From NCBI RefSeq assembly GCF_024320785.1, contig NZ_JANDBC010000002.1, positions 310,001 through 374,000 of the forward strand: a stretch of DNA of 64,000 bases, read 5' to 3'. The notes beneath the pieces are model-generated. The model was not told the DNA's origin. It made no database searches and worked only from the letters and a program-made list of their open reading frames with translations. The position numbers and the translations under genes are program-made. Numbering within the stretch: position 1 is the first letter of the stretch; every line of letters starts with the position of its first letter. This stretch comes from Gracilimonas sediminicola (GTDB lineage Bacteria; Bacteroidota; Rhodothermia; Balneolales; Balneolaceae). Shown here piece by piece: positions 2,629 through 19,865 of the stretch.

Positions 2629-3270
2629 TTACATCTCCTCCAAAAGTTTTTCCGGATCAATACCTTCCAACTCCAGGCTGTTTTTCAACTTCAGGCGGGC
2701 ATCGTGCACCAGCTTATAAATCGCATTTCGGTTCGTATCCATTTTATCCGCCACAACCGTTAACGGTATCTGATCTATAATTAAATACTGAAGCACCGTT
2801 TTCTGTTTTTCAGTGAGTTGCTCGTTCATCACTTTCATCACTTTCTCAACGGCCATCGACTCATGCGCAATCTGATCGGGCAAAGCTTCTTTCTCTTCAA
2901 TCTCAACCGCATGCTCTTTCTCTCCTTTTGGATTCACGTAATCTTGCAGGGAAATATCATCGTATCGTTTCCTCCTGAGCTCGGTATAGCCTTCTCTCAC
3001 TGCTATTTTCATGGCCCAGGTTGTGAATTTACTCTCTCCGCGAAAGGTATCCAGCTTGTCGAGAATTTTCAGAACGGAATCCTGGGCTATGTCTTCCACA
3101 AAATCGCCCAGATTTTTATCAACGTACTTATACAGAGAGGCTTTCAATCCCCTCACTAGGTAGGCTCTCAGCTTTGAGATGGCGGCATCTTCCGGCGGTG
3201 GAGACAGCGCTTCAATCCATTCTTCGTTTGTAAAAGAAGAAGCTGATTTCTTTTTAAACCAATTGAACAT
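2629..3270 (-). CDS. ECF-type RNA polymerase sigma factor
   Basis: 213 residues. Region 2 is recognisable (FVEDIAQDSVLKILDKLDTF then FTTWAMKIAVREGYTELRR, the helices that bind core polymerase and the -10 element), and region 4 near residues 140-200 shows LTEKQKTVLQYL followed by an HTH (LTVVADKMDTNRNAIYKLVHDARLKLK). The N-terminal 30 residues and the linker between the regions (about 105-140, rich in Glu and Lys) are longer than in minimal ECF factors. It is followed by a small zinc-binding anti-sigma-like gene, which fits a regulated pair. Its target promoter cannot be read here. The flavodoxin-like gene ends 109 bp upstream on the same strand, so an own promoter is likely. Confidence 0.9.
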   Translation of the reverse strand: MFNWFKKKSASSFTNEEWIEALSPPPEDAAISKLRAYLVRGLKASLYKYVDKNLGDFVEDIAQDSVLKILDKLDTFRGESKFTTWAMKIAVREGYTELRRKRYDDISLQDYVNPKGEKEHAVEIEEKEALPDQIAHESMAVEKVMKVMNEQLTEKQKTVLQYLIIDQIPLTVVADKMDTNRNAIYKLVHDARLKLKNSLELEGIDPEKLLEEM

Positions 3271-4225: not shown

Positions 4226-5176
4226 TTATCTCAAACCATTCGGGAGTCCTTTACAAATTCTGCTTACCGCATCATGGCTGTGCAAGCTTTCCATGTGTAC
4301 ACATCGGACTACAAAATCACGGATGCTGTTGTAGCTGTCCAATTCATCATAAAGAAGACGAGCGGCATCTTCCACGAATTTTTGATAAGCTCCGTTCAGT
4401 TCTGCAAACGCCTGTTCGTCTTCCCTTTTCACCATAACCTGTGTTTCAGTTTGAAGGGCTGTTCGACAGATATTGACCAAATCCTCTACGAAAAACTCAT
4501 CCTTCAGCGCTACCGTCACATTAGCCACGCTTCGCTGGCTGTGAGGTATGGCAGCTACTTCACGGGTTTCACGAGCATGTTCAGACAACTCGTACGAGCA
4601 CGGACATGCACTGCTGTATTCAAAATCGAGGTGCATGTATTTCTGAAACTGATTGTAATTGTCCAGCCGTCCCTCAAAGGAAACCTTGTAGTACTGGTAC
4701 CCTTTCATGTCGGAACGCAGACTGTCTTTGAGCAGCGGATAGTTGAAACTGACTCTCAAAAAAGATTCCTGGCTATCTAAATCATCTTTGTATGCCCGTA
4801 AAATTTCTTCAAGTCGGTCGAGATGAAAAACCTTATCCTGGAACTTATAAAAGGTGCGCATGATCCGACTCATGTTAATCCCCTTCTTATCCATTTCAAG
4901 ACTTACATATCCATCTACAGAAGCCTCAAGCGTAATGGGGTCGCCTTCTCTTCGTCTGAACTTCAGCGGAAGCTTGAAATTGGAAATGCCCACCTGCTGG
5001 ATAGGGACATTTGCCCCTTCTATAAGAGAAGCCGGCCCATTCTGTAAATCAGGCAGGGATTCTTTGTATTCTTCCGTTACCGTGAAGGTAGGGTCATAAA
5101 ATCGTTGTATTTCATTCTTAATCATATCTCTAACTGCTAATGATGAATAGTCTGTTATAGTCCTCTGTACGGACAA
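4226..5176 (-). CDS. folE2: GTP cyclohydrolase I type 2 (FolE2)
   Basis: 316 residues. FolE2 converts GTP to 7,8-dihydroneopterin triphosphate, the entry step to folate, biopterin and queuosine. The sequence shows the family's hallmarks: VPIQQVGISNFKLPL near residue 60, SLEMDKKGINMSRIMRTF near 95-110, and the metal/catalytic segment SACPCSYEL near 190 with its conserved Cys. Most bacteria use the zinc enzyme FolE; FolE2 accepts other divalent metals and is often kept by organisms facing zinc shortage (family knowledge). The gene overlaps the upstream PTPS/QueD gene by 22 bp, so the two are co-translated, and a strong terminator follows. Start chosen at ATG 5176, inside the end of the previous gene. 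Confidence 0.95.
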   Translation of the reverse strand: MSVQRTITDYSSLAVRDMIKNEIQRFYDPTFTVTEEYKESLPDLQNGPASLIEGANVPIQQVGISNFKLPLKFRRREGDPITLEASVDGYVSLEMDKKGINMSRIMRTFYKFQDKVFHLDRLEEILRAYKDDLDSQESFLRVSFNYPLLKDSLRSDMKGYQYYKVSFEGRLDNYNQFQKYMHLDFEYSSACPCSYELSEHARETREVAAIPHSQRSVANVTVALKDEFFVEDLVNICRTALQTETQVMVKREDEQAFAELNGAYQKFVEDAARLLYDELDSYNSIRDFVVRCVHMESLHSHDAVSRICKGLPNGLR

Positions 5177-5586
5177 TATTCGGCAATATTTCGTTCGGTT
5201 TCGTACAGCTTAACCTTGTACAACTTTCCGTCTTTGGAACAGGCGGCTTCCACATCAGGGCGCAATTCGTCGAAAAAAGCACGAACCAGGTTTTCCGTTG
5301 TGGGAATGATTCCCTGCAAAAAATCTACATCCAGATTCAGGTTTTTATGATCGCAGGGATCCAGAACCTTCTCTTTGATAATGGATTTTAATTTACCAAG
5401 ATCAATGGTATACCCCGTCTCCGGATCAGGCTCACCGGTTACGGTAACTTCAATTATATAGTTATGGCCGTGCCAGTTTGGAAGGTTGCACTTACCAAAC
5501 GTTTCCCGATTCCACTCCTCACTCTTATCGGGATTATGAAGGCGGTGGGCGGCATTAAAATGGGCTCTGCGTGTTACAAACGTCAA
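5155..5586 (-). CDS. 6-pyruvoyl-tetrahydropterin synthase / QueD family enzyme
   Basis: 143 residues, the normal size. It carries the zinc-binding histidines (FNAAHRL near residue 15 and NWHGHNY near 40), the preceding Cys of GKCNLPNWHGH, and the later DHKNLN motif with its catalytic Asp-His. The Cys-x5-HGH spacing is like that of eukaryotic PTPS (CNxPNGHGHNY) and many bacterial homologues. It acts on dihydroneopterin triphosphate, the product of FolE2, to give either 6-pyruvoyl-tetrahydropterin (biopterin) or 6-carboxy-tetrahydropterin (queuosine); sequence alone does not decide. The gene starts the operon and overlaps folE2. A 4a-carbinolamine dehydratase is also present at 37.6 kb, which gives some weight to a biopterin role. 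Confidence 0.9.
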   Translation of the reverse strand: MTFVTRRAHFNAAHRLHNPDKSEEWNRETFGKCNLPNWHGHNYIIEVTVTGEPDPETGYTIDLGKLKSIIKEKVLDPCDHKNLNLDVDFLQGIIPTTENLVRAFFDELRPDVEAACSKDGKLYKVKLYETERNIAEYCPYRGL

Positions 5587-5938: not shown

Positions 5939-6343
5939 ATGAAAATTACGGGTACTTTTAAACGGGATGTTGATGAATTACAGAACATATTCGACTTCCT
6001 TAAAAAAAATTGGGCGGGTTATGAGGTCAATGAAAATGATCAACGAAAGATTGAATTATCCGTTGAAGAAATTTTCATGAACATGGTTCGGCATAATCCG
6101 AATGCAGAGTTTGATATTAAACTAATAGTTGAAAAAAAGAATCGTAAGATTATATTAAGCCTGAGTGATTTTGAAGAAAAGCCATTTGATATAACTCAAG
6201 CGAGAGATGTTAACTTTGAGGAATATTTCAGGCAAAAAAAATCCGGGGGATTGGGTATTCACCTGGTTAAAGAAATTATGGATGATATCAAGTTTGTTCA
6301 TCGGAACGGGATATCGACCATAACAATCACAAAATTGATTTAG
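5939..6343 (+). CDS. RsbW/SpoIIAB-like anti-sigma serine kinase (HATPase_c_2)
   Basis: 134 residues from the ATG at 5939. It has the GHKL ATPase boxes of the RsbW family: N-box EEIFMNMVRHN near residue 45-55 and G-box GGLGIHLVKEIMD near 105-115. Such proteins bind a sigma factor or regulator and phosphorylate a STAS-domain antagonist; the very next gene, 10 bp on, is a STAS protein, so a partner-switch pair is clear. The ECF sigma gene at 6717 follows after a terminator-like hairpin; ECF factors are not the usual RsbW targets, so the switch may act on another protein. The open frame extends 31 codons upstream to 5846, but those residues are unlike the family. Confidence 0.85.
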   Translation: MKITGTFKRDVDELQNIFDFLKKNWAGYEVNENDQRKIELSVEEIFMNMVRHNPNAEFDIKLIVEKKNRKIILSLSDFEEKPFDITQARDVNFEEYFRQKKSGGLGIHLVKEIMDDIKFVHRNGISTITITKLI

Positions 6344-6352
6344 GGTTTTTAC

Positions 6353-6640
6353 ATGCTGAAGATTGAAGAAGTAAGTGAAAACGAGTTAAAGTTTATTGGT
6401 GAGTTTAGTGCAAGTCAGGAAAGCATTGCTTCTGATAAGCTTTCTGAGCATGAAGAGACTTTGACCATTGATATGGGGGAATTAAAATACATTTCAAGCA
6501 TGGGGTTAGGGGTGTTGGTAAAAACAAACCACAGGCTGAATGAAAACGGGCACTCGCTCAGGTTAAAAAACCTGAACAGTCATATTAAAGATATTTTCAA
6601 ATTTACCCGCCTTGACCAGGTATTTGATTTAATCGATTAG
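6353..6640 (+). CDS. STAS-domain anti-sigma factor antagonist
   Basis: 95 residues, a single STAS domain. The signature region is LTIDMGELKYISSMGLGVLV, where the Ser-Ser-Met-Gly-Leu-Gly stretch (DxSxxxSxGLG pattern) holds the serine that the kinase partner phosphorylates. Unphosphorylated antagonist binds the kinase and frees its target. Directly downstream of the RsbW-like gene with a 9-bp gap, so co-transcribed. A terminator-like hairpin follows at 6647, separating this pair from the ECF sigma gene. Confidence 0.88.
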   Translation: MLKIEEVSENELKFIGEFSASQESIASDKLSEHEETLTIDMGELKYISSMGLGVLVKTNHRLNENGHSLRLKNLNSHIKDIFKFTRLDQVFDLID

Positions 6641-6646
6641 GTAAGG

Positions 6647-6672
6647 CGCGGCCTGTAAAGCAGGCCTTTATT
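6647..6672 (+). terminator. Terminator-like hairpin after the STAS gene
   Basis: GGCCTG and CAGGCC form a 6-bp GC-rich stem with a five-base loop, followed by TTTATT. The T-run is short, so read-through into the sigma gene is possible. A second small hairpin (GCTTTCA/TGAAAGC) sits at 6676-6694, 22 bp before the sigma start. Confidence 0.6.
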
Positions 6673-6716
6673 ACAGCTTTCAACGACTGAAAGCATTTTC
6701 CTAACTAATACATGTT

Positions 6717-7238
6717 ATGGCTGATGTAGGTGACTATGATCTTATCAAACGTTGTCTGAATGGGGACAATAGTGCTTTTGACCTTTTGGTAAAGCGATAT
6801 GAGCGCCAGATGTACAGAACAGCATGGGGTATTGTTAAAAACTCAGATACAGCCAAAGATATAACCCAAACTGGATTTCTGAAGTGCTGGAAAAAGCTGC
6901 ATACCTACAACCCTGATTTTAAATTTTACAGCTGGCTGTATCGAATAATGGTAAATGAGTCTCTTAATCACCTAAGAAACAAAAAAACACATTCCAGCCT
7001 GTCACTGTATCATAGTAGCGGAGAAAACCCTTATTTAAAATTATTAAAAAAAGAGGAAAACAGAATTCTGGCGAAATGTATTGGTGAGCTGCCTACAGAT
7101 TATCGGGTTGTAATCCAATTAAGACATTTCGAAGAACTAAGCTATAAAGAAATTGCAGGCATTTTGGACATAGAACCCAGAACAGTAAAATCGCGATTAT
7201 ACACGGCAAGAATTCAATTGCGTGAAAAACTGCTTTAG
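6717..7238 (+). CDS. ECF-type RNA polymerase sigma factor paired with a membrane anti-sigma protein
   Basis: 173 residues, the usual ECF size. Region 2 (FDLLVKRYERQMYRTAWGI, then DITQTGFLKCWKKL and YSWLYRIMVNESLNHLR) and region 4 (LPTDYRVVIQLRHFEELSYKEIAGIL, RTVKSRLYTARIQLREKL) are complete. It resembles the SigW/RpoE-like group that answers envelope stress. The next gene, 102 bp on, encodes a membrane protein with an anti-sigma-like N-terminus, so it is the likely regulator. Upstream lie a kinase and STAS antagonist of the partner-switch type. No consensus target promoter could be read. Confidence 0.92.
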   Translation: MADVGDYDLIKRCLNGDNSAFDLLVKRYERQMYRTAWGIVKNSDTAKDITQTGFLKCWKKLHTYNPDFKFYSWLYRIMVNESLNHLRNKKTHSSLSLYHSSGENPYLKLLKKEENRILAKCIGELPTDYRVVIQLRHFEELSYKEIAGILDIEPRTVKSRLYTARIQLREKLL

Positions 7239-7340
7239 CTACTTTTTATATCATTTTTATCGGGATACAAAAACTTACCAACTTTTTCCAATTTGTGGTG
7301 TACTTAAAGTAAACAATACCAATTCGACAGTAGATATTAG

Positions 7341-8960
7341 ATGGAACAGGAGCTTATATACTTAATTCAGGCTGAAATTGACGGGGAAAACTCAGCAGCA
7401 CAAAGCCTGAAAGTGAAAAAAATTCTGGAAGAAGACCAGGAAGCAAAAGCTCTTTATGACGATCTATTAAAAATTTCAAAAAACATTAAAAAACTTGGAT
7501 CGGAAATCGATCCTTCTGAGTCCATCTCAGCCCGGGTACAACAAGAAATAGTAAATGAATCATGGGTTTACGGGGTACAATCTAATTCTAACATCAATCA
7601 TAAACATAATAATGGGGACACTATGTCTGAATCAAACAAACTATTTTCGGGTCAAAATATAGCCTCTGCGCTTGTAGGAGCAGCCGTTGCTCTTTTGGTA
7701 GTTTTTATTACCGGAATGCCACAACCAAATCAAAGTGATGTAAGCGGGACAATCGGAGGAGACCCGGTTGAACGTGCCGAAAGGTATCGGGGAACACAAA
7801 TGACGCATGCAGATATTTCTCTGGATGACGAAGAATTTCAGCAGGTTTTACAAAGCGATGTTTTTATCGACTTGGTAGAATCGGGTGAGTTAAAGAAGCT
7901 CTCTCAAAATGAAGCTTTTGTCCAGCTAATGGCCAGTCCTGACTTTAACCAGCTGTTTGCAAGTCCGGAATTCAATCAACTGATAGCAAGTCCTGATTTT
8001 TCTCAGCTTATGTCAGAAGCCTCTTTCAATAAACTGATGGCAAGTCAAAGCTTTAATCAATTAATTGCAAGCGCAGCTTTCAATGAGTTAATGGCAAGCC
8101 CGGATTTCAGTCGTCTTGCAGCAAGCGCGGAGTTTAATGGGTTAATGGAATCACCTGAGTTTATACTGCTCACAGCCAGTCCCGATTTTAACCGGTTGGC
8201 AGAGAACCCCTCTTTCAACTCATTAATGGCAAGCCCTGACTTTAGTCAGCTTTTAGCAGTACCTGATTTCAGTCGCCTAATTGCGAACCCAAATTTTAGC
8301 CGCTTAATGGCAAATCCTGACTTTAACCAGCTTACTGCTGCTGCGGAATTTAATCAACTTGCAGCAAGTGCTGAATTTAACCGTTTGATGGCAAGCCCAA
8401 ATTTCAGCAGCCTGATGGCTAACCCAACATTCACCCAGTTAATGGCGAATCCAGACTTCAACAGATTAGTTTCCAGTCCTGGTTTTAACAATTTAATGTC
8501 CAGCGCCAGCTTTAGCAGACTGATCGCCAGTCCTGATTTTAGTCGCCTGGTTGCCAGTCCTGAATTTAGCCAATTAATGGCAAACCAGGGTTTCAGCCGA
8601 TTGGTTGCAAGTCCTGAATTCAGCCGATTAATGGCCATTCCCAGCTTTAACAGTTTGATGGCCAGCCCAGATTTCAGCCGACTCATGGCAATTCCGAATT
8701 TTAGCCAGCTCATGGCAAGTCCCGACTTCAACCGGCTTGTATCAAGTCGGGAATTTAATCAGCTCTTGGCTAGTCCTAATTTTAGTATGCTGATGGCCAG
8801 TCAAAACTTCAGACAGCTAATGGCGATGCCGAACTTCAGCCAATTGCTGGCAAGTCCGAACTTCAACCAGCTGATGGCAAGCCCTAATTTCAGCCGGTTA
8901 ATGGCCAATCCTAATTTCCATAGAATGGTTGCAAGCCCTGAGTTTGATCAAAGGCTATAA
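7341..8960 (+). CDS. Membrane anti-sigma-like protein with about 40 nine-residue extracytoplasmic repeats
   Basis: 539 residues in three parts. Residues 1-75 are a charged helical cytoplasmic region (MEQELIYLIQAEIDGENSAA...) of the kind found in anti-sigma factors next to ECF genes; no zinc motif is present. Residues about 105-126 form one transmembrane helix (ASALVGAAVALLVVFITGM), giving N-in, C-out topology. From residue about 170 to the end the chain is an unbroken array of nine-residue units with consensus (M/x)-A-S-P-(D/E/N)-F-(N/S)-(R/Q)-L. I count 38 clear units from residue 197 and two or three degenerate ones before. Phe and Leu are almost invariant; the SPD/E step looks like a helix cap. 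I do not know a family with this repeat. The outer array may bind a partner or envelope polymer (inference). Read-out of the ECF factor rests on adjacency. Confidence 0.8.
   Translation: MEQELIYLIQAEIDGENSAAQSLKVKKILEEDQEAKALYDDLLKISKNIKKLGSEIDPSESISARVQQEIVNESWVYGVQSNSNINHKHNNGDTMSESNKLFSGQNIASALVGAAVALLVVFITGMPQPNQSDVSGTIGGDPVERAERYRGTQMTHADISLDDEEFQQVLQSDVFIDLVESGELKKLSQNEAFVQLMASPDFNQLFASPEFNQLIASPDFSQLMSEASFNKLMASQSFNQLIASAAFNELMASPDFSRLAASAEFNGLMESPEFILLTASPDFNRLAENPSFNSLMASPDFSQLLAVPDFSRLIANPNFSRLMANPDFNQLTAAAEFNQLAASAEFNRLMASPNFSSLMANPTFTQLMANPDFNRLVSSPGFNNLMSSASFSRLIASPDFSRLVASPEFSQLMANQGFSRLVASPEFSRLMAIPSFNSLMASPDFSRLMAIPNFSQLMASPDFNRLVSSREFNQLLASPNFSMLMASQNFRQLMAMPNFSQLLASPNFNQLMASPNFSRLMANPNFHRMVASPEFDQRL
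7929..8957 (+). repeat. 27-bp tandem coding repeat array (about 38 units)
   Basis: The DNA is a tandem array of diverged 27-bp units coding for the nine-residue repeat. Codon use differs between units, so the array is old or under selection at the protein level rather than freshly expanded. Unit length stays exactly 27 bp over the entire stretch, with no frameshift. Confidence 0.9.
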
Positions 8961-9007
8961 AATTCATCCATTTATTCAAACATAGAAGCTAACTGCTGCG
9001 GCAAATC

Positions 9008-9047
9008 AAGAATGGCCCTTTAATCGGGGTCATTCTTTTGTTTTTTA
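9008..9047 (+). terminator. Terminator after the repeat anti-sigma gene
   Basis: AAGAATGGCCC pairs with GGGGTCATTCTT (one mismatch) around TTTAATC and is followed by a T-rich tract broken by a single G. It separates the sigma/anti-sigma unit from the metalloprotease gene. Confidence 0.7.
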
Positions 9048-9102
9048 AGTCAGGGTTGATTAAATAGGTGCGGGGTTAACAAAAAAATTAACGGAGTACA
9101 TT

Positions 9103-12051
9103 TTGGGTTATGCAAGCAAATTTATTTTGGGAGGTCTCATACTCTTATTATTTCAATCCTTTGCCTTCGGGCAGTACAAAACGGTAAAAACGGAAGATCT
9201 GAACCTTGTTTATTATAATTTCGGGCATGAATACCTCATCAACCACACAATCCGAAGCTACACCAACGCACTCGATTTCCATAAAGATAAGTTTAACTAC
9301 CAGGTTACTGAGCCGGTAACGGTGATAATGTCCGATTTTGGTGACTTTGCGCAGGGTGGTGCCTCAGCCGTACCTAATAATGTGATTTTGATGGGAATAG
9401 CTCCCTTCCATTATGCATACGAGACCAACCCCGCTAATGAACGAATAGGTGTGCTGATGAAGCACGAGTTGGTTCATATAATCGCTCAGGAGAAATCATC
9501 TTCAGCTGATCGTTTTTATCGTAAACTGTTTGCCGGTAAAGTTTTCCCTGATCGGGACAACCCCGTTTCTATGCTATACAGCTACCTGACGGTGCCCCGG
9601 ATTTTTTCCCCAAGATGGTACCATGAAGGTATTGCTGAGTATATGACCACGTGGATGTCGGGCGGCATCGGACGAGTAATGGGCGCATATGACGAAATGA
9701 TGTTCCGGACTATGGTGCGCGACTCTTCCTATATTTATGATGCCGTTGGGCTGGAGTCAGAAGGCACCACTACCGACTTTGAAGCCGGTGCAAATTCCTA
9801 CATGTATGGCACCCGCTTTATGGCTTACCTGTCTTACCAATATGGACCGGAATCTTTACTTGAGTGGGTTTCCCGGGATGACGACAGTAAAAGATTTTAT
9901 GCCCGACAATTTGAGCAGGTTTACGGAAATTCATTAGATGATGAATGGTCTGAATGGATAGAATGGGAAAAAGAATGGCAACAAAATAATCTGGCTAACA
10001 TCAGAAGGAATCCGGTTACAGAGAGAACCTTACTCTCAGAAACACCCATTGGAGGTGTTTCTTCAGCTATCTATGCAAAAGAATTGAATAAAATTATTTT
10101 TGCAGCTGATCTCCCGGGCCAGATTGCACATATCGCTTTGTTAGATCCAAGAACGGGGGGAATGGAGCGTGTTGCAGATATTAATGGATCTGCTCTCTAC
10201 TTCGTTAGTTCATTAGCCTATAATGCTGACGGCCAAACGATATTCTATACCAATGATAATAACGGCTGGCGTGATTTATTTGCCGTAAACATAGAAACCG
10301 GCAACTCAAGGCAATTGATAAAAGATCTGCGCGCCGGAGATCTGGTGTTCAATCCCAATGACCGATCTCTTTGGGGAGTCAGGCATTTAAATGGCATTGT
10401 ATCCTTAATTCGCATCCCGGAGCCATATACAGAATGGAACCGAATCCATTCCATGCCTTATGGTGAAGATCTCTTTGATATCGATATCTCTCCCGACGGC
10501 AAATATTTGAGTGCTGCTATCGGTGATGTGCAAGGCCTGCAAAAGCTGGTCATGATGAGTACCGACTCTTTAATGCAGGGGAAATTTGAGCCTAAGGAAA
10601 TCTATGATTTCGAAGTGAGTTCCCCCGCCAGTTTTAAGTTTTCTAAAGATGGAAAGTTCTTGTTTGGTTCCAGCTATTACTCCGGTGTATCAAATATTAC
10701 CAGATATGACATCGAAAACGATCAAATGGAATGGCTTACCAATGTAGAAACCGGTTATTTCAAACCTATTCCCATTACGGATGACACCCTCATGGCGTTC
10801 GAATATACGGGAAAAGGATTCTTACCTGTACTCATTGAGAACAAGCCTGCGGAAAGAGTAAGTGCCATTAATTTTCTTGGGCAAGAAATAGTTGAAAAGC
10901 ACCCCGTTGTTATAGACTGGATGCTTCCCCCGCCTTCTCCCGAAAAGTATAACGTGGATGAATTACGGACGGGACAATCCGATTATACACCTTTCTCAAA
11001 CATGGCTTTAACCTCGGCCTACCCTATTATTCAGGGATTCAAAGACTATGCCGCAGCCGGAATGCGATTCAATTTCAACGACCCACTCAGGTTTCACAAT
11101 TTGGGCATTGCACTATCTTATTCCCCCTATTCCAGTCTGGCCGGTGATGAAAGATTCCATGCTTCTTTTTCCTATGAAGCTCAAAAGTGGAGATATTTCG
11201 GTAACTATAACGGAGCTGATTTCTATGACCTTTTTGGCCCTACCAAACAGTCACGTAAAGGGTATTCCATTGGATTGGGAAGAAATTTTCAACTGATGGA
11301 CGAGGTTGATAAAACGCTTACGGCTGATTTAAGTACCGCTTACTATGGTGGGATGGAACGACTGCCAAGTTTCCAGAATGTAATTACCTCTTTTTCTGAA
11401 TTCGTTTCTCTTTCGGGCAGTTTATCTTATAAAGCCATGTTGGCATCATTAGGAGCAGTGGATTATGAAAAAGGATGGGGTTGGGAGCTGCAGACCTATC
11501 ACAATTATGTTGAGGGCACTTTATTTCCGAGGGTAAATCAAAATTTGGACTATGGAATTGCATTGCCTATTCACCACTCTTCCATTTGGCTAAGGTCTTC
11601 GGCAGGCATTTCATTCTCCCCCAGAAGAGAGCCTCTTGGCAACTTCTATTTTGGAGGATTTGGTAACAACTGGATTGATTACAAACCCAGTAAAAGATAC
11701 CGATCGCCACAGGCTTTTCCCGGTGCGGATCTAAACCAGGTTGGCGGTACCAATTATGGAAAACTGATGGTGGAATGGTCCCTCCCACCTGTGCGATTTA
11801 AAAGGGCCGGTTTTATGAACCTATATGCTAACTGGGCACAACTTAATCTATTCACCACAGGATTACTCACCAACATAGATGATGATACCTTTTTGCAACG
11901 ATATTACAATGCCGGGGCACAGTTAGACTTCAGGTTATCCGTCATTTCCATCTTGGAATCTACCTTTTCAGTAGGTTATGCCTCTGCCTGGAACGATATT
12001 GCAGGCACCCGCAGTGATGAACTGATGATTTCATTAAGATTGATGAGATAA
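9103..12051 (+). CDS. Secreted HELVH metalloprotease / beta-propeller / outer-membrane barrel protein
   Basis: 982 residues starting at TTG 9103, with GGAG 7 bp upstream supporting this start. Residues 1-23 are a signal peptide ending AFG-Q. The N-terminal domain (about 25-300) is a gluzincin-type peptidase: H121-E-L-V-H125 binds zinc and WYHEGIAEY (Glu175) gives the third ligand, as in peptidase MA-like proteins. Residues about 320-620 carry WD40/TolB-like blades (SPDGKYLSA, FSKDGKFLFG). The last 330 residues (from about 650) have alternating aromatic/polar strands and end in LMISLRLMR, resembling a surface-antigen barrel. It would be an outer-membrane-anchored protease facing the periplasm or surface. 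The prsW-like gene follows after 16 bp, so the two are co-transcribed. Confidence 0.85.
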   Translation: MGYASKFILGGLILLLFQSFAFGQYKTVKTEDLNLVYYNFGHEYLINHTIRSYTNALDFHKDKFNYQVTEPVTVIMSDFGDFAQGGASAVPNNVILMGIAPFHYAYETNPANERIGVLMKHELVHIIAQEKSSSADRFYRKLFAGKVFPDRDNPVSMLYSYLTVPRIFSPRWYHEGIAEYMTTWMSGGIGRVMGAYDEMMFRTMVRDSSYIYDAVGLESEGTTTDFEAGANSYMYGTRFMAYLSYQYGPESLLEWVSRDDDSKRFYARQFEQVYGNSLDDEWSEWIEWEKEWQQNNLANIRRNPVTERTLLSETPIGGVSSAIYAKELNKIIFAADLPGQIAHIALLDPRTGGMERVADINGSALYFVSSLAYNADGQTIFYTNDNNGWRDLFAVNIETGNSRQLIKDLRAGDLVFNPNDRSLWGVRHLNGIVSLIRIPEPYTEWNRIHSMPYGEDLFDIDISPDGKYLSAAIGDVQGLQKLVMMSTDSLMQGKFEPKEIYDFEVSSPASFKFSKDGKFLFGSSYYSGVSNITRYDIENDQMEWLTNVETGYFKPIPITDDTLMAFEYTGKGFLPVLIENKPAERVSAINFLGQEIVEKHPVVIDWMLPPPSPEKYNVDELRTGQSDYTPFSNMALTSAYPIIQGFKDYAAAGMRFNFNDPLRFHNLGIALSYSPYSSLAGDERFHASFSYEAQKWRYFGNYNGADFYDLFGPTKQSRKGYSIGLGRNFQLMDEVDKTLTADLSTAYYGGMERLPSFQNVITSFSEFVSLSGSLSYKAMLASLGAVDYEKGWGWELQTYHNYVEGTLFPRVNQNLDYGIALPIHHSSIWLRSSAGISFSPRREPLGNFYFGGFGNNWIDYKPSKRYRSPQAFPGADLNQVGGTNYGKLMVEWSLPPVRFKRAGFMNLYANWAQLNLFTTGLLTNIDDDTFLQRYYNAGAQLDFRLSVISILESTFSVGYASAWNDIAGTRSDELMISLRLMR

Positions 12052-12067
12052 AATAAAATTTGCGAGC

Positions 12068-13072
12068 ATGATCCAGGTTTTAGAGTTTAGTTTTGCCCTT
12101 TTGCCCATAGTCATTTTTCTGATTGGCATGTGGATGCTTGACAGCTTTCAGCTTATAAAAACAAGAGAAGTGATAATCACCATTCTCTTTGGATTCTTAA
12201 TAGCCGGTATAGCTGTACTGTTTCATGGAACCATTCTGAATAATACAGGTATTGACAGAGCGGCGTTATCCAGGTATATAGCACCGGTTAGTGAAGAGTT
12301 TTTAAAATTTCTCCCTGTTATTTTTCTGATTGTGACTCGTAGGGTCGGGTTTATGGTAGATGCTGCAATTTTTGGCCTGGCTGTAGGAGCCGGATTCGCC
12401 ATTATTGAAAACCTGTATTACCTTAGAGCATTAGAAGAAGCTACTTTGATCACCTGGTTTGTACGGGGATTCGGCACAGCTATAATGCATGGTTGTACAA
12501 CAGCCATCGCAGCTATCATCAGTAAGGATTTATTCGATACTAAAGACTGGCCGGCTATGCTTTCATTTGTCCCCGGTTTCCTGCTCGCTGTGGTACTGCA
12601 TGCTTTATTTAACATGTTTCTGCTGCCACCTACTACTTCAGCCTTACTCATCACCATTTCTTTACCGCCTGTTTTATACCTCGTATTCAAGAAAAGTGAG
12701 GCTCACACCCGCTCCTGGCTCGGCACCGGGCTCGACAGTGACATGGAGCTGTTACAAATCTTATTAGCCGGCAATATCTCACAGACAAGAATTGGAGGAT
12801 ATATTCAATCTATACGTGATAAGTTTCCGCCGGCAGTAGTAGGCGATATTATTTGCTACTTACGCGTTTACCTGGAGCTATCCATTAAAGCAAAAGGCAT
12901 TCTGATTATGAAAGACAGTGGTGTGGAGTTACCTCCCGATCCAGATGTTGAAGCTCAGTTTGAAGAACTTGAATACCTGGAATCACAAATTGGAAAAATT
13001 GGGCTTCTTGCCATCCAGCCTCTTTTAAAGATTGACAACACGGATCTATGGCAGCTATCTCTAATGCGTTAG
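12068..13072 (+). CDS. PrsW-family intramembrane metalloprotease
   Basis: 334 residues with about eight membrane helices in residues 1-225 and a soluble tail. The family motifs are visible: E76-E77-x2-K80 in SEEFLKF, F110-x3-E114 in FAIIENLYY, His141 in AIMHGCTTA, and His178 in VVLHALFNMF. PrsW of Bacillus cleaves the anti-sigma factor RsiW at site 1 and so frees an ECF sigma factor (established). Here it sits in the same gene neighbourhood as an ECF sigma factor and a one-helix membrane anti-sigma-like protein, which makes that protein its most likely substrate (inference). It is the second gene of a two-gene unit with the secreted metalloprotease. The C-terminal 110 residues are a soluble extension of unknown role. 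Confidence 0.88.
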   Translation: MIQVLEFSFALLPIVIFLIGMWMLDSFQLIKTREVIITILFGFLIAGIAVLFHGTILNNTGIDRAALSRYIAPVSEEFLKFLPVIFLIVTRRVGFMVDAAIFGLAVGAGFAIIENLYYLRALEEATLITWFVRGFGTAIMHGCTTAIAAIISKDLFDTKDWPAMLSFVPGFLLAVVLHALFNMFLLPPTTSALLITISLPPVLYLVFKKSEAHTRSWLGTGLDSDMELLQILLAGNISQTRIGGYIQSIRDKFPPAVVGDIICYLRVYLELSIKAKGILIMKDSGVELPPDPDVEAQFEELEYLESQIGKIGLLAIQPLLKIDNTDLWQLSLMR

Positions 13073-13252: not shown

Positions 13253-14290
13253 TCAGTAGCTTGCTCGCTTGCTGTTAGCAAATCTTACCAGCGATAGCAT
13301 CACAGGCACTTCAATCAAAACACCAACAACGGTTACTAAAGCTGCACCAGACTGCAGTCCGAATAAAGCGATAGCCACGGCAACTGCAAGCTCAAAAAAG
13401 TTACTGGCCCCGATCATAGATCCCGGTGCACAAACCTGATACGGCAACCCGATCCACTTTCCCCCAAACCATGCGATTCCAAAGATGAAATATGTCTGGA
13501 TGATCAGAGGGATGGCAATGAAGATGATATCCAAAGGCTGTGATATAATGCGTTCTCCCTGGTAAGCAAACAGCAGAATCAATGTGATCAATAATGCTGA
13601 AATGGAAACAGGTTTGAACTTTGGCAGGAAGGTTTCGGTGTACCACTGCTTCCCTTTTTTAGCGATGGCCACTTTGTGTGTCAGATAACCCGCTACTAAT
13701 GGAATCACCACAAAAACGATAATGGAGGCTGCCAATGTATTCCACGGAATGATAATATCCGTAATACCCAGCAACAGACCAACAATAGGAATGAACAATA
13801 CCAATATCAGCAAGTCATTTACCGAGACTTGCACCAGGGTATAATTAGGATCTCCGTCCGATAAATAGGACCATACAAACACCATAGCCGTACAAGGAGC
13901 GGCTCCCAGCAGGATTGCCCCGGCAATATATTGGTCAGCCAGCTCAGGACTCAGCCATGCAGAATACAGCTGATCAAAGAATATCCAGGCAAAGAATGCC
14001 ATGGTAAAGGGTTTTATAGCCCAGTTGATGATAACAGTCCACACTACTCCTTTCGGTGACTTTCCGATCTCTTTGAGCGAAGCAAAATCAACCTGTAGCA
14101 TCATGGGGTAAATCATCAGCCAGATCAAAACAGCTACGGGTATGTTGACTTTGTAAATCTCCCATCGGCTGATGACTTCGATGGAATCCCCGGCCAGATA
14201 TCCTACCCCAATTCCAATTCCGATACACAGCAATACCCAAACTGTCAGGTATCGCTCAAAAAAGTCCATGCTCTTTTCCGAATTTGACAT
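13253..14290 (-). CDS. acr3: Arsenite efflux transporter, ACR3 family
   Basis: 345 residues, ten predicted membrane helices, the family's normal length. The ACR3 signature GAAPCTAMVFVWSYLSDGD (around residue 130) holds the essential cysteine in helix 4, and the later GASNFFELAVAVAIALFG segment is equally typical. It pumps As(III), and in some cases Sb(III), out of the cytoplasm using the proton gradient. It is the last gene of the arsenic cluster and follows the small DUF6428-like gene by 1 bp, so the two are one transcript, probably started at the operator at 14742. Confidence 0.95.
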   Translation of the reverse strand: MSNSEKSMDFFERYLTVWVLLCIGIGIGVGYLAGDSIEVISRWEIYKVNIPVAVLIWLMIYPMMLQVDFASLKEIGKSPKGVVWTVIINWAIKPFTMAFFAWIFFDQLYSAWLSPELADQYIAGAILLGAAPCTAMVFVWSYLSDGDPNYTLVQVSVNDLLILVLFIPIVGLLLGITDIIIPWNTLAASIIVFVVIPLVAGYLTHKVAIAKKGKQWYTETFLPKFKPVSISALLITLILLFAYQGERIISQPLDIIFIAIPLIIQTYFIFGIAWFGGKWIGLPYQVCAPGSMIGASNFFELAVAVAIALFGLQSGAALVTVVGVLIEVPVMLSLVRFANSKRASY

Positions 14291-14291
14291 C

Positions 14292-14738
14292 TTAACAACA
14301 AGCCCCCGCTTTCACTTCTCTGTTTAAACTTGGTTTGCATACAGTGGGTTTTACCGACAATGCCATAATAAGCATTTCTGAATTTTCCTTTACATCTTGT
14401 ATAGAATATCGAATAGTGGGATGAGCGGAATCGCCGAACTCAATAAACAATTCAGCTTCATCACGGTATTCTTGTTTTTCCCCCACAAGCCCGATGATCT
14501 TAAGTGCCTTGTCGGTTGTCCATTCAGCCTTATTTTCAGAGTTCTCATTCACCCAAAGCTGAATTACCGTTTCATTGTATGAGTGCTCGTTTCCGCCACA
14601 ATCCACTGAATCTACCGAATGGTGTTGTATTTCGGTGATGTGAAGATCACCGGATATTACCGTTGAGTCCGGAAGACTGAATTGCAGCTCTTTTCCTGTG
14701 TTATTTACCAAAGTGGTTATAAAAGTTGAAGTATTCAT
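14292..14738 (-). CDS. Small conserved protein of arsenic clusters (DUF6428-like)
   Basis: 148 residues, acidic, soluble. It shares the pattern of a small family often found between arsR and acr3 in Bacteroidota arsenic operons (DUF6428, named from memory without a search). Cysteines occur at SVDCGGNEH, KPTVCKPS and the C-terminal GACC, which could bind arsenite. It overlaps nothing but sits 1 bp before acr3 on the same strand. A candidate ArsR operator lies only 3 bp upstream of its ATG. A role as arsenite chaperone or sensor is inference. Confidence 0.7.
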   Translation of the reverse strand: MNTSTFITTLVNNTGKELQFSLPDSTVISGDLHITEIQHHSVDSVDCGGNEHSYNETVIQLWVNENSENKAEWTTDKALKIIGLVGEKQEYRDEAELFIEFGDSAHPTIRYSIQDVKENSEMLIMALSVKPTVCKPSLNREVKAGACC

Positions 14739-14741
14739 TTT

Positions 14742-14757
14742 ATCGTATTTTTGCGAT
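14742..14757 (-). promoter_or_regulatory. Second ArsR-type operator, upstream of the DUF6428-acr3 unit
   Basis: ATCGTA-TTTT-TGCGAT has the same half-site and 4-bp spacing as the arsR site ATCGTA-ATTA-TACGAT at 16683-16698, with one base different. It lies between arsC and the ATG at 14738, so ArsR probably also controls this promoter. Confidence 0.6.
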
Positions 14758-14775
14758 TAATATGGATAAATTTTT

Positions 14776-15384
14776 TTAGACGTTGCTCATCATATAAAAC
14801 ATCTCTTTAGCAATCTGAAAACATCGTTCATCATAGGTTTCTTTCTCTTTATCGGTGCCGTCTGATTCTTTTGGATCACGATAGGTAACAGCAATCCTGA
14901 ATTCGGTACCGGGCACAAACGGGCAATTTTCATCTGCATCGGAACAGGTCATTACAGCCGCAAAAGATGCATCCGGGTTGACATCATCATCGAATTTCTT
15001 GGAAAAACAAGTAAGCGATTCTGCCTCATCACTAAATGTGACCTGATACCGGGGATTGTCTCCACCGGGATTTTCAACCTCAAAACCGGCTCTTTCAATA
15101 GCTGCCACCGCCCTCGGATTAAAGGCTATTGCTTCTGTCCCGCCTGAATAGGTTTCAATATTATCGATCCCATAATAATGCGCAGCCGCTGCAGTCCAGA
15201 TCTGGGCGAGGTGACTCCGCCGGCTGTTATGCGTACAAATGAAGTTCAGTTTGGCTACCCGGTCATTCTCTGTTTTTTTCCTGATATAATCAGACAGTTT
15301 CTTCAGGTTTTCCTTTCTTTTGTCAGGAATGGAATCGTAACCGGGTTCCAGCTTTTGAATGTATTCTTTCAGTTTATGATACAT
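14776..15384 (-). CDS. arsC: Arsenate reductase, LMW protein-tyrosine-phosphatase type
   Basis: 202 residues, longer than the usual 130-140 because of a helical N-terminal extension of about 45 residues. The P-loop is C50-THNSR-R56 (CX5R), where Cys50 attacks arsenate. The redox pair needed for thioredoxin-type ArsC is present: C147 and C154 in TCSDADENCPFVPG. It reduces As(V) to As(III), which ArsM methylates or Acr3 exports. The gene follows arsM by 12 bp. The extension is also seen in some Bacteroidota homologues (family recollection); its role is not known. Confidence 0.9.
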   Translation of the reverse strand: MYHKLKEYIQKLEPGYDSIPDKRKENLKKLSDYIRKKTENDRVAKLNFICTHNSRRSHLAQIWTAAAAHYYGIDNIETYSGGTEAIAFNPRAVAAIERAGFEVENPGGDNPRYQVTFSDEAESLTCFSKKFDDDVNPDASFAAVMTCSDADENCPFVPGTEFRIAVTYRDPKESDGTDKEKETYDERCFQIAKEMFYMMSNV

Positions 15385-15396
15385 CAGTTAACAAAC

Positions 15397-16302
15397 TTAG
15401 CAGCATCCCGAACCGGGCTCACAAGCATTTGCATTGGCATTTCCGAGCATCGTCACGGCTTCCTTTTTCGCAGATTTACCTTCCCCGGCTTTCCGGGCAA
15501 ATACAGTGATGCTGTAAATACCGGTTCCGCCTGAGTTAAATTCGGCTATTTCGTCCTCAGCTAAATATTGACTTAGAATATCCTCGGGAATCTCAATCGG
15601 TTTTTCTTTCTGGATGGTGATGTCTTCAAATCCGGCTTCTTTGATATAGCCCAGATAGGTTTCTTTTTGGATGGCGCCGGCTACACATCCTGCATACATT
15701 TCGGCATCTTCCCGAAGGGCTTCCGGGAGATCTCCCTCCAATACAATATCAGAAATACTGAAATGTCCGCCGGGTTTAAGCACCCTGTGAATTTCGGTAA
15801 AAACTTTTTCTTTGTCGGGAACCAGGTTCAATACACAGTTGCTGACCACTACATCGGCTACATCATCAGAAGCCGGCAGTTCTTCTATATCCCCATATCG
15901 AAATTCCACATTATTAAACCCGAGCTTGTCTGCATTTTGCCGTGCTTTAGCAATCATCGGTTCTGCAAAGTCAATTCCCAACACCTTCCCTTCTGCCCCT
16001 GCCTCATGCCTTGCTACAAAACAATCATTTCCAGCCCCGGAACCCAGGTCAATTACATAGTCCCCTTTCTTGATTTGCGCGAATTGTGTTGGCAGCCCGC
16101 AACCCAAACCTAAATCTGCATCAGCATTATACCCCTCCAGTTCACTGTAATCATCCGTCATGATGTTATATACTTTGGTAGATTCTCCCCCTGCACCACA
16201 ACATGAACGAGCGTTATAATCTTTAGCCTGCTCACTGATCTGGCTGTACTTCTGGCGAACTGTTTCTTTTAGCTCTTCGGGTGATTTTTGATGTGATTTC
16301 AT
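15397..16302 (-). CDS. arsM: Arsenite S-adenosylmethionine methyltransferase
   Basis: 301 residues. The SAM-binding motif I is DLGSGAGND (85-93), and GIDFAEPMI gives motif II. The arsenic-binding cysteines are where the family puts them: C156 in SNCVLNLVPDK and C206 in YAGCVAGAIQ, plus the N-terminal CC pair at 34-35 and a C-terminal GSGCC. It methylates As(III) to volatile or extruded methylarsenicals. Gene order arsR-arsM-arsC is a normal operon with a 39-bp gap after arsR. A Cys-rich tail like this is common in ArsM homologues and may help capture arsenite. Confidence 0.93.
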   Translation of the reverse strand: MKSHQKSPEELKETVRQKYSQISEQAKDYNARSCCGAGGESTKVYNIMTDDYSELEGYNADADLGLGCGLPTQFAQIKKGDYVIDLGSGAGNDCFVARHEAGAEGKVLGIDFAEPMIAKARQNADKLGFNNVEFRYGDIEELPASDDVADVVVSNCVLNLVPDKEKVFTEIHRVLKPGGHFSISDIVLEGDLPEALREDAEMYAGCVAGAIQKETYLGYIKEAGFEDITIQKEKPIEIPEDILSQYLAEDEIAEFNSGGTGIYSITVFARKAGEGKSAKKEAVTMLGNANANACEPGSGCC

Positions 16303-16341
16303 AATTGGGAAATTTTGAATTGGGGGATTATGAATACTTTT

Positions 16342-16674
16342 TCAACAGCAATTTGGGTTTTGGGTCGTCAGATCTTTTAACAGTGATTCCATCACGGTTT
16401 TCAATTCAGCTACATTTTCTTCATCCAGGCAATAACAGGTTCGGACTCCGTCGATCTCACCTTTTATAATTCCCGCAGACTTCAATGCTTTCAAATGCTG
16501 GGAAACGGTGGATTGAGCCAGGGGCAGCTCTTCGGTGATATCTCCACATATACAGGTATTTCGTTTTGCCAGTATTTCCAGAATAGCTATACGTGCGGGA
16601 TGAGCCAGAGCCTTTGCAAACTCAGCAGCTTTCACCTGTTTTTCGTCGAATAATTGTGCTTTTGTGAGTGCCAT
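16342..16674 (-). CDS. arsR: ArsR-family arsenic-responsive repressor
   Basis: 110 residues. Winged-helix DNA-binding region [22 protein letters not shown] spans about 50-70. The metal site is the Cys41-Ile-Cys43 pair of NTCICGD at the start of the alpha-3 helix, with a further C-terminal NCC pair. Binding of As(III) releases the repressor from DNA. It heads the operon and its ATG (16672-16674) touches the operator, so its own transcript would be nearly leaderless. No Shine-Dalgarno site is visible. Confidence 0.93.
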
Positions 16675-16952: not shown

Positions 16953-19865
16953 TTACTTAATCAGTGTCATCTTACGCGTTATAGCCACATTTCCACTGGT
17001 TAAGCGATAGATGTATAAACCACTTGAGAGATTGCTTGCATTAAAGTTCAGGGTATTCATACCTGAAGAGAACATTTCTCTGTTTGCAAGCGTAGCAACT
17101 TCACGTCCCAGCATGTCATACACCTTCAGTGTTACCTGCTGCGCTTTTGGCAGTGTAAAGCTGATTTGTGTAGTTGGGTTGAATGGGTTCGGATAGTTTT
17201 GGTTCAGAGAAACCGCATTTGGCACTTCGGCAACCGGTTCTTCTGTATCCGTAACCACGCCGTCTCCCAGGAAGCCGTAAGCATCCAGAGCAGTCCATCC
17301 TGCTGCCCAGTTAGTACCATCGAAGGCACCAACGTAATTTGTGCTGTAGAACCAGCTGTCTCCCATCGAGCCGGCTGCACCATAGACAGGGCTTGTTGGA
17401 ACAGGACGAGGATCCAAACCTCCGTCAGTAGTTCGGCTGATACCAATCAGTTGTGGGTCGGTCACTGAGTTTCCGTTTTCATTCAGCATGGTGGCTTCGT
17501 AATCGTTGGTGGCAATTTCAGCAATAGTTGAACCTGTACCGAAGTCGAAAAAGAAGCTGTTGTTGATGTTGAGTGAGTCTGCTTCCAGTCGGGCACGTGA
17601 ATCGAAGTCATCTACGCCATCTACATCTTCCACGCGAAGAGCATTGCCCGGGTGGTCGGTGAATACAGAGTTGGCGTAAAGAGCACCGGTGTTATCACGA
17701 AATTCCAGCATTTGTCCCGGATCTCCGGATGGTGTTGAGGATGAACCCGGTCCAATATAGGTAGCATTTGCAATTACAGGGTAAGCAAATGGCGTACCGG
17801 TTTCATCTCCGCCGGCTCCGTCCATTTCAGCTGAACGACCTGCTTGGTCACTATCCTGAATTACAAACCAGAACTGACCTTTTCCACGGAAGCCCTGATC
17901 CCAGTCAAAAGCGTCATCATTGTTGAAAGCGGAAATCAGGTAACGGGTGTTTACCGTTCCACCGAACCACTCGTATCCGTCATCACCTGAGGCAAATGAC
18001 TCAACATACTCGATAGTTGTACCGGCACCTACTCCACCTAAAGTCAGTCCCTGAATCTCATTACCTGAACTTGATCCAATGTTGATCCCTGTGTGTCGGA
18101 TCGATACATAACGAAGTACACCGGAATCATCCATGTCGTCTGTACCGCCATATCCTACCAGTGCAGGATCAGACTCAATCTCATTCACACCTTCGATGGT
18201 CGCTTCAACAGTATTATTGGTTGATGCTCGGCCAAGAATTACAATACCACCCCATTCTCCAACATCATCTTTGGTTAAGTTGGCATCCTCTTCAGCTGTA
18301 AATACAATAGGGTTGCTTGGAGAACCTTCAGCAAAAATTCTGGAATCGCGAGTAATTACTAATCCGGAAGCATCAAGGTCCTGACCGGCTGCTCCTCGAA
18401 CAGTGGTTCCGGCTTCGATATAAAGATCCGCACCATTGGTTACGAAGATCATCCCGTCCAGAAGATATTCATTGTCTGCGGTCCAGTATGTATCCTCGGT
18501 AATATTGGCTGAAACAGTTACCGTTCCAGCTGTCCCTTCAGCTGCCAGATATCCGTATTGATCCAGGGCAGTCCATCCGGCTAACCAGTTGTTACCGCCA
18601 AAAGCACCTTTGTAAGCTACATTACTGAAGAAAGCATCATTTGGAATTTCTGCTCCCTCAAGAACATCAGCATTACCCGGACGCGGGTCTAAACCTGCAT
18701 CATCGGTTCGGCTAATTCCCCCTAACTGAGGATCTGTAACGCTATTGCCGTTTTCATTCAGCATGGTGGCTTCGTAATCGTTGGTAGCCATGTCGGCCAG
18801 GGTGTTTCCTGTACCAAAGCTGAAGAATACACTATTATTGATGTTCAAAGAATCTGCTTCGAGACGAGCTCTTGAATCGAATTCATCAACTCCGTCCACA
18901 TCTTCCACACGAAGGGCGTTACCCGGGTGGTCGGTAAAGATAGAGTTAGTATAAAGAGCACCGGTGTTGTCACGGAACTCAAGCATTTGTCCAGGATCTC
19001 CGGATGGAGTGGAAGAAACTCCCGGCCCTACATAGGTAGCGTTGGAGATAACAGGATAGGCGAATGGAGTACCTGTTTCATCTCCTCCGGCTCCGTCCAT
19101 TTCAGCAGAACGTCCGGCCTGATCACTGTCCTGAATCACAAACCAGAACTGACCTTTTCCACGAAAGCCCTGGTCCCAGTCAAAGGCATCATCATTATTA
19201 AAAGCAGACACCAAATATTTGGTATTTACTGTTCCACCGAACCACTCGTATCCGTCATCACCTGAGGCAAATGACTCAACGTATTCGATGGTAGTACCGG
19301 CACCTACTGCACCTAAAGTCAGTCCTTGAATTTCATTACCTGAACTGGAACCAATGTTGATTCCTGTATGTCGAATAGATACATAACGAAGAACACCCGA
19401 ATTGTCCATGTCGTTATCTCCACCGTAGCCTACAAGAGCAGGATCAGATTCGATCTCATTCACACCTTCGATGGTCGCTTCAACTGTATTATTTGTTGAT
19501 GCGCGACCAAGAATTACAATACCACCCCACTCACCAACATCATCTTTGGTTAAGTTGGCATCATCTTCTGCTGTGAAGATAATTGGGGAATCTGCAGTGC
19601 CTTCAGCGAAGATTCTGGAACCGCGGGTAATTACCAGCCCGGAAGCATCAAGGTCTTGCCCTGCCGCTCCGCGAACAGTGGTTCCGGCTTCGATATAAAG
19701 ATCCGCACCGTCGGTTACGAAAATCATACCATCGAGCAGGTATTCGTTGTCAGAAGTCCATTCGGTGTCTTCCGTTATGTTAGAACTGACAGTCACTGTT
19801 GTTTGCGCCATCGCAAGAGCGGGAACAATCATCAGTGCTGCAATAAGTAGCGTTACTTTTTTCAT
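16953..19865 (-). CDS. Secreted T9SS-type protein made of two near-identical repeat domains
   Basis: 970 residues. Signal peptide MKKVTLLIAALMIVPALAMA precedes two homologous halves, about 22-440 and 445-865, each opening with VTVS-x-NITED and sharing blocks such as LDGMIFVT, GEWGGIVILGRAST and GDDGYEWFGGTVNT. The chain has the G-rich rung pattern of a right-handed beta-helix. Residues 885-970 form the sorting domain (NQNYPNPFNPTTQISFTLPK ... SGLYIYRL...MTLIK), so the protein is exported to the surface by a type IX-like system. It follows the TonB-dependent receptor by 40 bp and is co-transcribed with it. No catalytic motif was recognised. A surface binding protein feeding the receptor is a guess from context. 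Confidence 0.85.
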   Translation of the reverse strand: MKKVTLLIAALMIVPALAMAQTTVTVSSNITEDTEWTSDNEYLLDGMIFVTDGADLYIEAGTTVRGAAGQDLDASGLVITRGSRIFAEGTADSPIIFTAEDDANLTKDDVGEWGGIVILGRASTNNTVEATIEGVNEIESDPALVGYGGDNDMDNSGVLRYVSIRHTGINIGSSSGNEIQGLTLGAVGAGTTIEYVESFASGDDGYEWFGGTVNTKYLVSAFNNDDAFDWDQGFRGKGQFWFVIQDSDQAGRSAEMDGAGGDETGTPFAYPVISNATYVGPGVSSTPSGDPGQMLEFRDNTGALYTNSIFTDHPGNALRVEDVDGVDEFDSRARLEADSLNINNSVFFSFGTGNTLADMATNDYEATMLNENGNSVTDPQLGGISRTDDAGLDPRPGNADVLEGAEIPNDAFFSNVAYKGAFGGNNWLAGWTALDQYGYLAAEGTAGTVTVSANITEDTYWTADNEYLLDGMIFVTNGADLYIEAGTTVRGAAGQDLDASGLVITRDSRIFAEGSPSNPIVFTAEEDANLTKDDVGEWGGIVILGRASTNNTVEATIEGVNEIESDPALVGYGGTDDMDDSGVLRYVSIRHTGINIGSSSGNEIQGLTLGGVGAGTTIEYVESFASGDDGYEWFGGTVNTRYLISAFNNDDAFDWDQGFRGKGQFWFVIQDSDQAGRSAEMDGAGGDETGTPFAYPVIANATYIGPGSSSTPSGDPGQMLEFRDNTGALYANSVFTDHPGNALRVEDVDGVDDFDSRARLEADSLNINNSFFFDFGTGSTIAEIATNDYEATMLNENGNSVTDPQLIGISRTTDGGLDPRPVPTSPVYGAAGSMGDSWFYSTNYVGAFDGTNWAAGWTALDAYGFLGDGVVTDTEEPVAEVPNAVSLNQNYPNPFNPTTQISFTLPKAQQVTLKVYDMLGREVATLANREMFSSGMNTLNFNASNLSSGLYIYRLTSGNVAITRKMTLIK
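17236..19802 (-). repeat. Long tandem repeat within the secreted protein gene (period about 1.28 kb)
   Basis: The two halves of the gene are alike at DNA as well as protein level over most of their length. Coordinates are approximate. Long identical tracts, for example around 17860-18010 and 19140-19290, suggest recent duplication or gene conversion. Confidence 0.8.

Follow-up and report, generated by a model that had tools for sequence, protein, structure and literature searches.

A sigma factor cassette of Balneolales in which an RsiW-like anti-sigma domain is fused to a nonapeptide-repeat arm and paired with a predicted barrel metallopeptidase

The window analyzed here is a stretch of 64,000 nucleotides from Gracilimonas sediminicola (contig NZ_JANDBC010000002.1, positions 310,001 to 374,000 of the forward strand). 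Six genes on its plus strand fill positions 5939-13072, a block that an initial annotation had proposed and that is borne out by open reading frames and domain matches for all six members. They encode, in this order, an RsbW/SpoIIAB-like anti-sigma kinase (5939..6343, with an alternative ORF start at 5846), a STAS anti-anti-sigma protein (6353..6640), an ECF sigma factor (6717..7238), a 539-aa protein joining an anti-sigma domain to a repeat arm (7341..8960), a HExxH metallopeptidase predicted to be exported (9103..12051, TTG start with GGAG 5' of it), and a PrsW-family intramembrane protease (12068..13072). In the window, a weak, terminator-like hairpin lies at 6650..6666 between the STAS and ECF genes. 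All features described below are on the plus strand unless stated otherwise. No PADLOC model matched at the locus, and thus it does not classify as an anti-phage defence system.

The kinase matches HATPase_c_2 (PF13581, E = 9e-14), and its N-box residues E44 and N48 and its GGLG motif are invariant at nine loci. The STAS protein matches PF01740 (E = 1e-10) and carries a conserved Ser-Ser phospho-site (YISSxGL), with S48 and S49 invariant at 11 loci. The partner switch is often completed by a GAF-SpoIIE (RsbU-type) phosphatase gene beside the cassette, which is the seventh gene, directly 3' of prsW, in L074, L075, and L083-L085 and occupies the kinase position in L080. The sequence hallmarks of an RsbW-RsbV-RsbU system, namely the kinase N-box and G boxes, the phospho-serine of the STAS protein, and a PP2C phosphatase beside part of the cassettes, are therefore all found, with the window kinase scoring far below the RsbW equivalog cut-off. 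Where the RsbW/RsbV/RsbU system shares the HATPase_c_2 kinase, the phospho-Ser STAS protein, and often the GAF-SpoIIE phosphatase, the locus differs in that its partner switch is coupled to an ECF factor already having an anti-sigma factor of its own. The ECF partner switch of Alphaproteobacteria, EcfG-NepR-PhyR, is built from other proteins (PMC8103513). Since the kinase is missing from the otherwise complete locus L072 and is replaced by the phosphatase in L080, the partner switch as encoded does not appear to be essential.

The ECF factor (173 aa) contains sigma regions 2 and 4 but lacks region 3 (matches to PF04542 and PF08281 only, E about 2e-16), as expected for this class, and its sequence is conserved over 13 cassettes. 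An ECF-type promoter, ACCAACTTTT-N11-GTGTACT (7277..7304), the sole exact site in the genome, precedes the anti-sigma/arm gene, and ACCAACTTTT-N11-GTGTAaTT or a near variant is found 5' of the anti-sigma gene at the fused loci. A hairpin followed by a T-run separates the anti-sigma and protease genes at 19 of 20 fused loci (18 of the 19 others tested and the window, where this intrinsic terminator spans 9008..9037). The regulon was probed by pattern searches in 78 genomes, with the reversed pattern as a control. The stringent pattern ACCAACWTW-N12-STGTAHT gave 14 exact matches versus 0 for the control; 11 of them lie directly 5' of the anti-sigma gene, one in each of 11 genomes, and the remaining three are in genomes lacking a detected anti-sigma/arm match. 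Hits of a relaxed motif were no more numerous in cassette genomes than in cassette-free ones or than those of the reversed control, and a second relaxed-motif site in the window's genome was rejected as a target, being located inside a coding frame and recurring in a cassette-free relative. With patterns of this stringency, no candidate target of the ECF factor other than the anti-sigma/arm gene is detectable, more degenerate promoters being possible; a broad stress regulon was seen with neither the stringent nor the relaxed pattern.

Residues 1-58 of the fusion protein (7341..7514) are predicted to form a cytoplasmic domain whose model superimposes on RsiW from the complex with SigW (5wuq_C; Z = 7.2, rmsd 1.7 A, 56 of 70 residues), and a profile comparison also matched RsiW (E = 0.037); besides RsiW, Foldseek with the full anti-sigma model returned unrelated proteins only. 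By its fold this is an RsiW-type anti-sigma domain with putative sigma binding, and the residues of the fold are conserved among cassettes. The HxxxCxxC site of zinc anti-sigma (ZAS) proteins is absent, there being no Cys in residues 1-100. A single transmembrane helix (residues about 107-125, 7659..7715; Kyte-Doolittle maximum 2.46, helical in the model) leads into a juxtamembrane stem, QP...SGTIG...VERAERYRGTQ (7722..7799), whose motif QP..SGTIG..VERAERYR is the most conserved segment of the exported part throughout the phylum and likely serves for cleavage or recognition. It is followed by about 42 tandem nonapeptides with the consensus ASPDFSRLM (7836..8957). The earlier description of a one-helix anti-sigma-like protein is right about the hydrophobic helix and the N-terminal domain but misses this arm, and the label of a repeat anti-sigma factor, although the repeats are real, understates an array in which 41 units keep a single unbroken 9-residue register.

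The sequence of the unit varies by lineage (ASPDFSRLM, ASADFNRLL, MREPAFVEL, NNPAFAELA) with the 9-residue period largely kept, and AlphaFold2, supplied with 13 sequences, predicts one short helix per unit (pLDDT mostly 70-82, the middle of the array being less certain). Between the window and G007, dS of the array is 0.91, compared to 0.03-0.18 for the anti-sigma domain, stem, ECF factor, protease, and PrsW and 0.30 for the kinase; dN/dS of the array is 0.1, and both genes encode 539 aa. Among eight other close pairs, the array dS is clearly higher in about half (for example, 0.53 vs 0.12 in L073/L076) and similar in the rest. The exported length, counted from VERAERYR, clusters by clade, with 350 aa in one (four of four members), 359-361 aa in a second (five of five), and 363-367 aa in a third (four of four). 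Such near-constancy within clades despite sequence turnover, well illustrated by the window and G007, would suit a trans-envelope ruler, that is, a helical rod anchored in the inner membrane and docked on the outer-membrane protease, so that a change in spacing or loss of the outer membrane triggers the cut. However, lengths differ between clades (304 to 465 aa overall), and remote homologues described below are exported without an anchor, which makes a ruler improbable. By its exact 9-residue period, near-fixed length per clade, and predicted helix per unit, the array is an unusual solenoid candidate. Its match to the STI1/HOP DP domain (PF17830, 39.6 bits with a cut-off of 29.1) covers 22 of 55 positions in low-complexity repeats; the short helical motifs are similar, and the array keeps one unbroken 9-residue register. 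Matches to ribosomal, BACK, TPR, and ATP-synthase families in Pfam and NCBIfam were rejected as low-complexity. A profile match to human coagulation factor V (E = 1e-7) involves the B-domain nonapeptides, a 9-residue repeat of similar composition; kinship with this unrelated eukaryotic region was rejected, the likeness being almost certainly convergent.

Directly before the membrane helix, the fused gene contains a candidate internal start, GGGGA followed by an in-frame ATG at codon 95 (7614..7625). Each of the 24 fused orthologues examined has an in-frame ATG at this place, mostly with GGAGG, GGAG, or GAGG 5' of it at the spacing of a ribosome-binding site. In a hand-picked set of 14 fused orthologues, one per clade, the Shine-Dalgarno scores sum to 68, whereas reshuffling of synonymous codons for the same residues gives 50.8 +/- 3.9 (p<0.001), and no other position in the surrounding region scores higher; the window's own GGGGA is weak and no better than its synonymous shuffles. 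Distant families encode the arm by a gene of its own, whose ATG is preceded in L152 and L153 by aaggagg. As the arm has its own gene in the split families and the Shine-Dalgarno signal of the fused loci exceeds that of shuffles, the statistical evidence argues that the fused gene still gives an arm-only product, and in Balneolales it probably makes both the full anti-sigma protein and the free arm.

For the exported HELVH protease with a propeller and a barrel, postulated in the initial annotation, a signal peptide and the zinc-ligand motif HELVH (9463..9477) were found together with a propeller resembling TolB (Z = 21.6); a barrel of the outer-membrane type is predicted at the C-terminus, the model being of low confidence for the protease domain and of moderate confidence for the barrel. 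HExxH is present in 44 of 44 homologues, and the downstream Glu (in the window that of RWYHEGIA, which lies about 50 residues past HELVH and is assigned as the third ligand) in every sequence inspected, the arrangement typical of HExxH gluzincins; among the peptidase families of Pfam and NCBIfam no match was found. The propeller fold is shared with TolB, but here it sits between a metallopeptidase and a barrel. The last gene product matches PF13367 with 79 bits (cut-off 23.5), and its residues E76 and E77 and K80 of the EExxK motif, E114, H141, and H178 are invariant phylum-wide, in accordance with an intramembrane protease; its 33.6 bits in the equivalog model NF033739, where more than 225 are needed, characterize it as a PrsW-family protein and not as the Bacillus subtilis orthologue. 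The catalytic residues of both proteases are conserved in the cassettes. In B. subtilis, RsiW is the founding substrate of PrsW, which acts as its site-1 protease (PMC3482391, PMC4183432).

Conservation of gene order in relatives was one point at which the initial annotation had considered itself open to refutation, and it withstood this test. The six genes are collinear in the window and in 13 other Balneolales loci (L023, L024, L025, L026, L028, L030, L031, L033, L067, L074, L075, L079, and L085), the kinase gene of L067 running off its contig; the other loci are collinear up to contig ends. Searches for the anti-sigma protein, PrsW, and the metallopeptidase in 78 relatives match largely the same genomes, and exceptions among true matches are mostly due to contig ends. 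Both the conserved order and this co-occurrence support the proposal that the six genes act as one unit. The cassette is found in only three of ten genomes of the window's genus, and, judging by this distribution, it is patchy but moves as a whole, in an all-or-none manner. In G027 the kinase, STAS, and ECF genes, the promoter, and a bare anti-sigma domain are kept, and the arm, protease, and PrsW are jointly lost. A scan of species genomes, which recovered close relatives only, found protease homologues essentially confined to Balneolales bins, with one bin labelled Rhodothermaceae and one labelled Bacteroidia. Two loci contain additional genes: in L085 (5198-6436) a stand-alone paralogue of the arm, with a membrane helix, stem, and degenerate repeats and without the anti-sigma domain, stands between the fused and protease genes, and in L067 (6093-7556) a gene for a PAF-acetylhydrolase-like lipase is inserted between those of the protease and PrsW.

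Two wider groups, split cassettes and a remote group, emerged from a repeat-only search and from a search with the protease profile in 395 genomes of the phylum (30 positive). Among the split cassettes, the order kinase-STAS-ECF-anti-sigma-arm-protease-PrsW is seen in L152 and L153, and ECF-anti-sigma-arm-protease-PrsW in L185, L188 (which also has the kinase and STAS genes), L189, and, up to the contig end, L186. L187 has arm-protease-PrsW; L151 has an arm, a protease, and a weak PrsW without an ECF gene; and L184 carries an independent anti-sigma/arm fusion with units of about 24 residues and no detected PrsW. In several split cassettes the same promoter element precedes the ECF gene, most clearly in L152, L184, and L189. 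All PrsW genes detected stand next to arms with a membrane helix. Because L186 and L187 lack clear repeats, we abandoned the view that all arms are repetitive.

A remote group (L190-L203) has proteases about 31% identical to that of the window. Whenever the sequence extends upstream of the protease gene, it encodes there an exported protein of tandem repeats with units of 15-16 residues (L198, where this DNA is absent, stands outside the count), and those arms whose start is visible have VExAxRYR close behind a predicted signal peptide. The ECF factor, anti-sigma domain, and PrsW were not found in the stretches retrieved around these proteases. One remote cluster examined has a sigma-54 activator and sensor kinases alongside, and a sigma-54-like promoter precedes five of seven remote repeat genes, where 0.03 would be expected. 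Since the remote VExAxRYR follows so closely behind the signal peptide, a tethered arm plausibly needs a cut in its stem to be released; and since, in addition, PrsW accompanies only anchored arms, the SGTIG-VERAERYR segment is a likely candidate for cleavage. The arm and the barrel protease are the apparent functional core, and the sigma circuits the variable part. Contigs of L190, L191, L194, L202, and L203 stop inside the array just 5' of the protease gene, so that draft assemblies probably miss a share of these arms.

An exported protein of L195 (4744-5703), encoded directly 5' of a protease homologue, has 16 near-identical copies of SGSQLDELGSKYGWVR in 48-nt units 99% identical; sister loci carry lineage-specific versions of the repeat. 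Units alike within a genome and different between lineages, a dedicated protease gene directly 3' of the arm, and high synonymous turnover in several arrays are what one would expect of a tandem peptide precursor, cut by the protease into 9-, 12-, or 16-residue signals or antimicrobials with the sigma circuit timing production. At the same time, the 9-residue array is predicted to fold into ordered helices, its length is near-fixed within clades, a constraint that would be superfluous in a store of peptides, and the arms of L186 and L187 have no clear repeats; a precursor of peptides is therefore improbable.

The initial annotation placed its emphasis on an envelope-stress cascade that cuts the anti-sigma protein in two steps and releases the sigma factor. 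In its classical form, known from sigma-W and sigma-E, envelope damage would activate the exported protease or PrsW, the ECF factor would switch on a stress regulon, and the repeats would be only a sensor domain. An RsiW-like domain, PrsW, and an ECF factor in a conserved locus, with all catalytic residues retained, are in agreement with it. Among the closest known systems is SigW-RsiW-PrsW of B. subtilis, with an ECF factor, a membrane anti-sigma protein having the RsiW-type domain, and PrsW with EExxK/E/H/H; the present anti-sigma protein differs in lacking the Cys residues of the zinc site and in having about 42 nonapeptides, and the locus differs in its added barrel metallopeptidase and partner-switch genes and in showing no broad regulon. 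However, targets beyond the anti-sigma/arm gene, which the cascade predicts, were seen with neither the stringent nor the relaxed motif, and it explains neither a probable arm-only product nor the core pair of arm and HExxH barrel protease, which persists elsewhere without the ECF factor, anti-sigma domain, or PrsW. Overall, we regard a stress cascade as rather unlikely.

We tentatively prefer, with a probability of about 0.45, a fill-level loop, in which a self-contained sigma switch produces the membrane-anchored repeat arm. Of its elements, the cassette, the promoter, the domains, the array, and, on statistical grounds, the internal start are supported, whereas localization, the order of cleavage, the freeing of the sigma factor, and the action of the kinase/STAS pair are inferred. 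Free ECF factor would transcribe the anti-sigma/arm gene from its dedicated promoter. The full-length product, composed of the RsiW-like domain, membrane helix, stem, and about 42 nonapeptides presumably exposed to the periplasm, would act as a tethered anti-sigma factor that reports an intact arm, and the internal start would yield extra arms without the anti-sigma domain. The arms would work with the partner protease, whose domain order suggests that the barrel resides in the outer membrane and the metallopeptidase in the periplasm. The anti-sigma domain of an intact arm would retain the sigma factor; a cut in the stem by the metallopeptidase and/or PrsW, completed by general proteases, would remove the anti-sigma domain, re-open the promoter, and lead to more arms. 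The kinase/STAS pair, often together with the GAF-SpoIIE phosphatase, may supply a cytoplasmic input. If this is true, the inhibitor and the product under its control are covalently joined in one protein, which would amount to direct counting of an envelope component.

In a broader and somewhat more tentative generalization, the locus may represent an undescribed class of envelope systems, widespread in the phylum, where an exported arm and a metallopeptidase-propeller-barrel protein are placed under a dedicated alternative sigma factor, the anti-sigma domain of Balneolales being fused to the arm with an internal start, so that the sigma factor would read the level of its own product. Arm units of this class would have 9, 12, 16, or 24 residues behind a stem of the VExAxRYR type, and the sigma factor would be of the ECF type in one branch and sigma-54 in another. 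The paired barrel protease provides a concrete partner for the arm, and the two branches provide parallel cases in which the arm as the output can be tested. A large exported sensing part on a membrane anti-sigma factor is known from SigI/RsgI of Clostridium thermocellum. The proposed class resembles that system in this architecture, but differs from it in having another ectodomain, a tandem arm, and a paired barrel protease. No description of this arrangement was found in the open-licence literature.

Several other genes surround the cassette. Just upstream, overlapping genes that by their translations encode a FolE2-like GTP cyclohydrolase and a QueD/PTPS-like protein occupy 4226-5586 on the minus strand, and a second sigma-70-family or ECF-like gene is located at 2629-3270, also on the minus strand and outside the conserved block. 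Directly downstream, an arsenic-type cluster on the minus strand (13253-16674), likewise judged by its translations, encodes an ArsR-like regulator, a methyltransferase-like protein, an ArsC-like phosphatase, and an ACR3-like permease. It is followed on the same strand (16953-19865) by the gene of a secreted protein that consists of two near-identical halves and carries a C-terminal sorting segment of the NYPNPFNP type.
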